DNA of 64,000 nt from positions 1-64,000 of the forward strand of contig LJXT01000005.1 of NCBI GenBank assembly GCA_001314815.1, in the 5' to 3' direction. The position numbers and the translations under genes are program-made. Source of the stretch: Algoriphagus marincola HL-49 (GTDB taxonomy: Bacteria > Bacteroidota > Bacteroidia > Cytophagales > Cyclobacteriaceae). The notes beneath the pieces are model-generated. The model did not search any database. It was not told where the DNA came from and saw only the letters and a program-made list of their open reading frames with translations. Below are positions 31,142 through 57,496 of the stretch, in pieces. Position 1 is the stretch's first letter, and each line of letters opens with the position of its first letter.

Positions 31142-32896
31142 ATGTATAGAAGTCACAACTGCGGCGAACTTCGCCTAGACCATGTCAATACTCAAGTCAC
31201 TCTTGCTGGGTGGGTTCAGCGAGTAAGAAATAAGGGAGGCTTGATTTGGGTGGATCTTCGGGACCGTTATGGATTGACGCAGTTGATTTTTGAAGAAGGC
31301 TCTACTGCCAAAGAACTGCTTGATAAAGCCGGGTCCCTAGGCCGTGAATTTGTCATTCAGGCAACAGGTACCGTGATCGAGCGGACATCAAAAAATGATA
31401 AAATCCCAACGGGTAGCATTGAGGTAAAGGTAGTGGAGCTCGAGGTCCTGAATCCGGCCAAGCTTCCACCGTTTTTGATAGAGGATGAAACTGACGGTGG
31501 GGATGATCTTCGGATGAAATACCGATACCTGGATTTGCGCCGGAATGTAATCAGGCAAAAGCTTCAATTACGCCACCGCATGATGCAGGAGACTCGGAAA
31601 TACATGGATGCAGCGCAGTTTATCGAAGTGGAAACACCCGTTTTGATCAAATCCACCCCAGAAGGGGCTCGAGACTTTGTTGTGCCAAGCCGTGTGAACC
31701 CCGGTGAGTTCTATGCGTTGCCCCAATCTCCTCAGACTTTCAAGCAGCTTTTGATGGTTTCGGGTTTTGACCGGTATTTCCAAATCGTCAAGTGTTTCCG
31801 CGACGAGGATCTTCGGGCAGATCGACAGCCTGAGTTTACTCAAATCGACTGCGAGATGTCTTTCGTGACACAAGAAGATGTGCTTTCCATGTTCGAAGGG
31901 CTTACCAGGCACTTATTCAAAGAGGTAAAGGGAGTAAAATTGGAGGAAGTCGGAAGAATGACCTTTGCCGATGCGATGCGATTTTACGGGAATGATAAGC
32001 CCGACCTTCGCTTCGATATGCGATTTGTGGAATTGAATGACCTTGCAAAGGGCAAAGGCTTTGGGATATTCGATCAGGCTGAGTTGGTAGTAGGTATCTG
32101 TGCCAAGGGAGCTGCAGAATACACCCGCAAGCAATTGGATGCCTTGACTGAATGGGTGAAAAGACCTCAGATCGGAGCCAAAGGCATGGTCTATGTCAAG
32201 TATAACCCAGATGGGTCTTTGAAGTCCACAGTGGATAAGTTCTACGGTCAGGAAGATTTGACTGCTTGGGCAGCAGCATTTGGTGCGGAGCCCGGCGACT
32301 TGATGCTCATTCTAAGCGGGGATACGAAAGTGGTGAGAAAGCAGCTTTCTGAGCTTAGATTGAAAATGGGAGAAGATTTGGGGCTTCGTGACAGAACGGT
32401 CTTCAAGCCTCTTTGGGTCGTAGATTTTCCTTTACTAGAATGGGATGAGGAGACGGAGCGATATCATGCCATGCACCATCCATTCACCTCTCCCAAGCAA
32501 GAGGATATCCCGCTTTTGGATTCCAATCCAGGAGAAGTGCGGGCCAATGCATACGATTTGGTCATCAATGGGGTAGAAATAGGTGGGGGATCGATTCGAA
32601 TCCATGACCGAGCCACGCAGCAATTGATGTTCAAACATTTAGGCTTTAGCGATGAGGAAGCTCAAAAGCAGTTTGGATTTTTGATGGAGGCTTTCGAGTA
32701 TGGAGCTCCTCCTCATGGTGGCATCGCCTTCGGTTTTGACCGTCTTTGCGCCATTTTCGGAGGCTCTGATTCCATCCGGGACTACATAGCCTTCCCGAAA
32801 AATAATTCAGGCCGAGATGTCATGATTGACTCACCTAGTACCATAGCTGATGAGCAGCTACAAGAACTTTCTATTCAGCTAGCTTTGAAGAAATAG
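31142..32896 (+). CDS. aspS: aspartate--tRNA ligase
   Basis: [93 protein letters not shown]. Start moved to 31142 from the ORF-track start 31088. Confidence 0.97.
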
Positions 32897-56783: not shown

Positions 56784-56791
56784 TATATTTG
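56784..56791 (+). promoter_or_regulatory. -7 box (TATATTTG) upstream of tRNA-like copy 1
   Basis: Exact TAnnTTTG match approx. 36 nt before the acceptor stem; the -33 box is weak (TTTTC). Confidence 0.45.
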
Positions 56792-56826: not shown

Positions 56827-56949
56827 TGTAGGATGTTGAAATTGGCAGACAAGCCCTCCTGTCTCGGGGGTGGGGATGAAAGGACAAAGCATTTATCGAG
56901 CTCGTGAATGCCTAACTTCCCCGTGGAGGTTCGAATCCTTCTCCTACAG
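56827..56949 (+). ncRNA. tRNA-like RNA copy 1: class-II-like, GUC anticodon loop, 54-nt variable region
   Basis: Acceptor TGTAGGA/TCCTACA plus C56826-G56949; D arm TTG-AAATTGGCAGA-CAA; anticodon arm CCCTC-CTGTCTC-GGGGG; V-arm GGGGA...TCCCC; T arm GGAGG-TTCGAAT-CCTTC; G73. Confidence 0.85.
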
Positions 56950-56980
56950 CAGGTTATTTTGGGTTTATTGTTAATTGATT

Positions 56981-57014
56981 AAAACCATGAAATTGTTTTT
57001 CATGGTTTTTTTTT
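56981..57014 (+). terminator. Rho-independent terminator of tRNA-like copy 1
   Basis: AAAACCATGAAA ... TTTTTCATGGTTTTTTTTT. Confidence 0.8.
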
Positions 57015-57343: not shown

Positions 57344-57466
57344 TGTAGGATGTTGAAATTGGCAGACAAGCCCTCCTGTCTCGGGGGTGGAGGTAAAGGA
57401 AAAAGCATGGCTCAAACCGGACTATCGCCTAACTGCTCCGTGGAGGTTCGAATCCTTCTCCTACAG
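57344..57466 (+). ncRNA. tRNA-like RNA copy 2: class-II-like, GUC anticodon loop, 54-nt variable region
   Basis: D, anticodon, T and acceptor arms identical to copy 1; V-arm GGAG...CTCC; same 123-nt length; C57343-G57466 extends the acceptor. Confidence 0.85.
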
Positions 57467-57469
57467 CTA

Positions 57470-57496
57470 AAAGCAGCAAGAAATTGCTGCTTTTTT
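57470..57496 (+). terminator. Rho-independent terminator of tRNA-like copy 2
   Basis: AAAGCAGCAAGAAATTGCTGCTTTTTT begins 3 nt after the tRNA-like 3' end. Confidence 0.85.

Follow-up and report, generated by a model that had tools for sequence, protein, structure and literature searches.

A previously unlisted tRNA-like gene family with aspartate identity elements in Cytophagales bacteria and their viruses

The 64,000 nucleotides that open contig LJXT01000005.1 of Algoriphagus marincola HL-49 (forward strand; hereafter the window) carry two copies of a tRNA-like gene belonging to a previously unlisted family found in Cytophagales bacteria and their viruses. Comparison of its members shows a conserved, duplicated RNA that has an acceptor stem, a full tRNA elbow, and a 3′ end encoded in the manner of tRNA genes. 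Its body plan is derived from tRNA-Leu, and it bears the aspartate identity set recognized by aspartyl-tRNA synthetase (AspRS). Its end pair is U1-A72, and it lacks U20a. From these sequence features, we give an even chance to a model in which AspRS charges the element, GatCAB turns the bound Asp into Asn, and the RNA would serve asparagine supply, not decoding.

The anatomy of both copies is given in Table 1. The original prediction, made from the letters of the window alone, had described an Asp-type loop on a Leu-like body at 56859-56949. The loop is real, and the letters given for it, for the D arm, for U10 (in place of G10), for the G2-C71 pair, and for G73 are those of the sequence, but the span given starts at C32, partway through a molecule that extends over 56827-56949. 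Beyond the view of that prediction lay the longer, duplicated gene, the very large variable domain, the U1-A72 end pair, and the tie to GatCAB. The second copy is 86% identical to the first, and these two are the only ones in the window's own genome. Since C74, but not CCA, is encoded in most of the genome's tRNA genes, the 3′ end of the element fits the local tRNA convention. Neither copy was detected by ARAGORN or matched in Rfam 15 at gathering or permissive thresholds; no tmRNA match was found in the window with Rfam or ARAGORN either, the best tmRNA score being 5.8 bits. Extending the acceptor to 8 bp through C-1:G73 was rejected for lack of conservation at position -1. Pairing between the V-domain loop and the anticodon-like loop, sought by eye, was also set aside, as the GAC/GAG motifs present in several V types do not track changes at positions 33 and 34.

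Table 1. Positions of the features discussed in the text, in the window and in phage loci.
Feature	Sequence	Positions	Strand	Remarks
aspS, bacterial-type aspartyl-tRNA synthetase	Window	31142-32896	+	TIGR00459, 711 bits
tRNA-like RNA, copy 1	Window	56827-56949	+	123 nt; sequence, covariance model match (137 bits), covariation
Copy 1 acceptor stem TGTAGGA/TCCTACA	Window	56827-56833/56942-56948	+	7 bp
Copy 1 D arm TTG-AAATTGGCAGA-CAA	Window	56836-56852	+	3-bp D stem, tRNA-Leu-like D loop
Copy 1 anticodon-like arm, stem CCCTC/GGGGG	Window	56854-56870	+	5 bp
Copy 1 anticodon-like loop CTGTCTC (C32 U33 G34 U35 C36 U37 C38)	Window	56859-56865	+	Sequence
Copy 1 large V domain	Window	56871-56924	+	54 nt; covarying stems
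V domain, outer stem	Window	56872-56875/56919-56922	+	Covariation
V domain, inner stem	Window	56880-56882/56916-56918	+	Covariation
V domain, hairpin	Window	56889-56911	+	Plus A-rich internal loop opposite (C)UAA
Copy 1 T arm GGAGG-TTCGAAT-CCTTC	Window	56925-56941	+	Canonical
Copy 1 discriminator G73	Window	56949	+	Sequence
Encoded C74 after G73 of copy 1	Window	56950	+	As in most tRNA genes of the genome
Intrinsic terminator of copy 1	Window	56981-57009	+	
tRNA-like RNA, copy 2	Window	57344-57466	+	Same body; V domain differs, outer stem compensated
Intrinsic terminator of copy 2	Window	57469-57494	+	
Second phage family	L136	7683-7830, 6143-6262, 6478-6616, 7947-8052, 8137-8251		
Second phage family	L240	5065-5185, 5270-5412		
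Second phage family	L371	4588-4706, 9980-10112		
Second phage family	L143	4907-5049		
Second phage family	L235	10005-10162		

The flanks of copy 1 have features of their own. Upstream, TATATTTG at 56784-56791 fits the Bacteroidota -7 promoter motif TAnnTTTG; no such match precedes copy 2. Downstream, the 64 nt at 56950-57013, terminator included, are conserved at ~87 to 97% in the loci of ~40 relatives. This exceeds the needs of a terminator, and the segment is possibly a trailer RNA or an attachment site.

The fragment first described folds no better than its shuffles (z -0.5) and the whole element modestly better (z -1.75); the structure is proven by comparison, not by folding of a single sequence. 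In the 43 relatives from which a covariance model was built, 97.4% of cells are paired and both sides have changed in 20 of 29 pairs, values matched by none of 500 shuffles that leave relatedness in place. Sliding of the partner strand, used as a further control, lowers pairing to ~52 to 63%. Both the 7-bp acceptor and the 5-bp T stem covary. The first sequences were gathered with a D-loop pattern, and D-arm invariance among them is thus a product of ascertainment; matches to the covariance model do show covariation of the D stem (TTG/CAA, ATG/CAT, ACG/CGT, and GTG/CAC).

To separate fixed from drifting positions, 277 unique members were parsed and reduced to 56 bodies sharing <92% identity. 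G2-C71, G73, U35, C36, and C38 are invariant in all 56, as are the general tRNA positions, in a parse that demanded U35, C36, and C38. The viral sequences and the first genome sequences had been gathered with patterns covering TCTC or portions of the D loop, but around 100 covariance-model genome matches that were not loop-selected all read U35-C36-Y37-C38. G34 is kept in 53/56 bodies and absent from 10 of the 277 unique members. The positions that do not vary, or in the case of G34 rarely do, are the very AspRS identity positions named in the original prediction, and they coincide with the published aspartate determinants, of which G73, G34, U35, C36, and C38 are strong and G2-C71 is minor (PMC9976931). 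G10, said to be missing, is indeed absent from most members (present in 15/56 bodies), and the non-purine at position 37 recurs throughout, as T or C in 56/56. U33 is found in 46 bodies and replaced by G, C, or A in the other 10. Variable loops among relatives, which the prediction had held to count against itself, occur only at the non-identity positions 32 and 33, rarely at 34.

At the other end of the molecule, the end pair is U1-A72 in 273 of the 277 unique members and A-U in four, and none of the 277 has a U directly after G18-G19, i.e., U20a is missing. GatCAB uses U1-A72 and is kept off Asp-tRNA-Asp by the antideterminants G1-C72 and U20a (PMC9976931, PMC4206432); the element has both substrate features, U1-A72 and the lack of U20a. 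The G1-C72 pair is described as strictly conserved in bacterial tRNA-Asp and, for E. coli AspRS, as helping to place the 3′ end (PMC9976931); charging might therefore be weaker with U1-A72. A normal tRNA-Asp(GUC), whose presence had been singled out as worth checking, exists in the window genome (L255), with G1-C72, GGTTAG, and a CTGTCAC loop from which that of the element differs only at position 37. Against a canonical tRNA-Asp, the element has the AspRS determinants and lacks G1-C72, a kept U33, and a purine at 37; against a canonical tRNA-Leu, it has the Leu-type D arm and V-arm junction, both agreeing with the genome's Leu tRNAs, and lacks A73.

Covariance models place the family in most Cytophagales genomes, in some other Bacteroidota, and in phage tRNA arrays. 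An order-wide search with the 43-relative model gave some match in 290 of 292 sampled genomes, a number that includes matches of ~84 nt with E values around 1e-6 to 1e-15 that are mostly tRNA-Leu cross-hits. Long members (E < 1e-19) occur in most of the order, in several other families of the class, and in one family outside the class. Tandem copies are common and reach about eight in a genome. Members from one genus measure only 76 nt, with a V region of 7 nt and without the large variable domain, and still score 85 to 88 bits with the R2 model versus ≤51 for background tRNAs; the V domain is thus not essential to the core. ARAGORN labels these short-V members tRNA-Asp.

On phage contigs, the element is often separated by a few bases from the tRNA genes of an array, the largest such array counting 26 genes. 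Some phage loci hold the element without any other detected tRNA, and some arrays hold both it and a normal tRNA-Asp. Named phages and plasmids gave no BLAST match to the element. No general partner gene and no conserved adjacent transferase gene were found beside it in phage contexts, the neighbors being diverse phage genes. Several phage members (L341, L350, L368, L373, L387, L388, L407, and L409) have an extra hairpin of ~10 to 20 nt in the D loop. In tandem copies of one genome (L308:1674-1805 and 1854-1985), a palindromic insert, ATCCCGATAGCTATCGGGA, replaces the end of the D loop and the 5′ anticodon strand; these copies are probably decaying or invaded by a repeat. A second phage family, with several copies per phage, combines an AGTCAGG/CCTGACT-A73 acceptor and Leu-like D and T arms with an insert of 50 to 110 nt that stands in place of the anticodon and variable arms and differs between copies.

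The prediction concerning GatCAB was fixed before the genome searches. The GatB gene is intact in the window genome, and among sampled genomes of the class GatB is present in 38/38 element-positive genomes versus 3/61 element-negative ones. Two of these three carry GatB-AspRS fusions (G202, with a 1,116-amino-acid ORF, and G154, with a similar ORF), and the third (G041) is without GlnRS. A strict rule fails within Cytophagales, where many element-negative genomes keep GatB. Those tested for GlnRS all lack it save one (G445), and absence of GlnRS makes GatCAB necessary for Gln-tRNA, so that GatB is kept without the element. GlnRS-less genomes retain GatB with or without the element, and the element is absent from several close relatives. 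Among genomes with both GlnRS and AsnRS, which could otherwise do without GatCAB, GatB is found in 16/16 element-positive genomes and 1/11 element-negative ones (Fisher p 1.3e-6, a value that overstates the case because the genomes are related). On the AspRS tree, five independent contrasts are supported, of which four are concordant, none is opposed, and one is neutral (p = 0.125). The neutral one is G445, where GlnRS and GatB are present and the element was not detected, while its close relative G250 has the element. AsnRS was present in 63/63 tested genomes. We regard the link between element and GatB as likely but not established.

The fusion in G202 lies in a gatC-gatA-gatB::aspS operon (contig C26; L526:1622-6676), in which GatB is joined to a full bacterial-type AspRS in a protein of about 1,110 amino acids; L527 and L528 hold ORF pairs like those of this operon. 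Such a protein is apparently a one-chain transamidosome; no element was found in the Bacteroidota that carry it. The fused enzyme has His where the window AspRS has Lys31.

The presence of aspS in the same window as the element is probably incidental. In the anticodon-binding region of AspRS, positions 31 and 84 have the same kinds of residue in element-positive and GatB-less genomes. A relaxed AspRS is said to be always accompanied by an amidotransferase (PMC6523644). Together, these two points suggest that element-positive AspRS enzymes do not charge tRNA-Asn, in which case the U1-A72 substrate bearing Asp would be the element. As for asparagine synthetases, AsnA was found in 4 of 41 sampled element-positive genomes (G274, G072, G166, and G162), and three genomes with both the element and GlnRS (G321, G190, and G250) have neither AsnA nor any asparagine synthetase above the NCBIfam cut-off. 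The shorter AsnB type, recognized by its characteristic split match, is present in 8/10 GatB-less genomes and 0/27 element-positive ones. A general absence of asparagine synthetase from element-positive genomes was considered and is not claimed because longer paralogues are common, most of these genomes having paralogues above the cut-off.

Invariant identity positions, together with a loop that keeps neither U33 nor a purine at 37, lend support to the earlier suggestion that the RNA may be aspartylated for a non-ribosomal use. The suggestion of a decoy or regulatory tRNA mimic found no evidence, and the tie to GatCAB points instead to Asp-to-Asn conversion. The element would be transcribed and processed in tRNA style, as its anatomy indicates, and charged with Asp by AspRS, as the invariant positions suggest. 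GatCAB, accepting U1-A72, would then amidate the bound Asp to Asn, a step to which the end pair and the co-retention with GatB point, and would refuse the true tRNA-Asp owing to G1-C72 and U20a. The loop, free at 33 and never with a purine at 37, would bar the Asn-charged element from reading Asp codons. Asn would be released or handed on, after which AsnRS would charge the ordinary tRNA-Asn. The variable domain may be accessory, perhaps an enzyme docking site or a bar to ribosome use, and phage copies may raise or restore the same asparagine supply.

Some of the evidence would suit an ordinary, if unusual, tRNA-Asp that AspRS charges and that reads GAC/GAU beside the standard one: the Asp identity positions are kept, with G34-U35-C36 in most members, ARAGORN calls the short-V members tRNA-Asp, and phages hold the element inside tRNA arrays. 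We consider this unlikely given the replacement of U33 in 10/56 bodies, the consistent lack of a purine at 37, and the normal tRNA-Asp already present in the window genome and some element-bearing phage arrays; nor does it account for the GatB link or for U1-A72 in place of the strictly conserved G1-C72. A carrier that is aspartylated but never amidated, or a decoy for AspRS, passing Asp to a non-ribosomal transferase or controlling AspRS, would agree with the identity evidence, with a loop not kept for decoding, and with multi-copy genes that have their own terminators. It leaves U1-A72, the missing U20a, and the co-retention of GatB all unexplained, phage contexts show no conserved transferase neighbor, and we hold it to be quite improbable.

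GatCAB could also serve tRNA-Asn charged by a relaxed AspRS, with the element doing something else and their co-occurrence reflecting shared ancestry. Such a route has been proposed for bacteria having AsnRS, GlnRS, and GatCAB, some Bacteroidetes genera among them (PMC4206432). The tRNA-Asn of the window genome has U1-A72, and the independent contrasts are few. However, gains and losses of the element track GatB in 4/5 of them, the element-positive AspRS is not visibly unlike that of GatB-less genomes, the GatB-AspRS fusion differs at position 31, where it has His, and the determinants for both AspRS and GatCAB sit on the element itself, which makes this reading improbable as well. Charging by SerRS or LeuRS, as a class II tRNA used for recoding like an allo-tRNA, is very unlikely. 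The long variable arm and G73 are what SerRS needs, the D arm and V-arm junction are of Leu type, and allo-tRNAs with GUC anticodons exist (PMC7609411), but the acceptor branch is 7/5 rather than 8/4 or 9/3, the genome's Leu tRNAs have A73, and positions 35, 36, and 38 are invariant though SerRS ignores the anticodon. Members as short as 76 nt, with their 7-nt V region, further argue against either enzyme.

In the literature covered, which leaves out most subscription journals, we found neither this family nor any separate RNA for Asn formation described; it does describe tRNA-dependent synthesis of Asn on tRNA-Asn, along with allo-tRNAs and other unusual tRNAs. The proposed amidation resembles the former, in which a non-discriminating AspRS and GatCAB act on tRNA-Asn (Bdellovibrio, Deinococcus, and Staphylococcus), in that Asp is amidated on a U1-A72 RNA in hosts that also have AsnRS. 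The proposed carrier differs in being a separate RNA whose identity set is that of Asp rather than Asn and whose loop is not kept for decoding. The element shares G73, G2-C71, G34 U35 C36, C38, and the loop CTGTC-C with bacterial tRNA-Asp(GUC), from which U1-A72, pyrimidine 37, a free 33, the missing U20a, the lack of a fixed G10, the Leu-type D arm, and the large V domain set it apart. Bacterial tRNA-Leu (class II) has the same D-arm sequence, V-arm junction (T44 ... GT), and overall body, but not the G73, the Asp-type loop, or a V domain of up to 123 nt. Allo-tRNAs and selC-like tRNAs have a long variable arm, G73, and an anticodon unrelated to the body, as the element does, whereas its 7/5 acceptor branch, single fixed loop type, and lineages are different; some allo-tRNAs are not usable in E. 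coli translation (PMC7609411). The proposed biosynthetic use, while differing in amino acid, enzymes, structure, and lineage, is like that of the tRNA-Gly of staphylococci. There, a non-proteinogenic tRNA-Gly is kept for cell-wall synthesis and altered to avoid translation.

Taken at its widest, the model describes a tRNA family outside the genetic code, Asp-charged, amidated, and non-decoding, that would replace asparagine synthetase in much of Cytophagales and be spread by phages, a tentative reading whose chances we put slightly short of even. A widely distributed RNA gene family has escaped ARAGORN, short forms excepted, with the window copies below Rfam 15 thresholds. If the proposal is true, it would provide a role for GatCAB in bacteria having both GlnRS and AsnRS, which the literature covered leaves open, and would add a class of tRNA conserved for charging and amidation, not for decoding.
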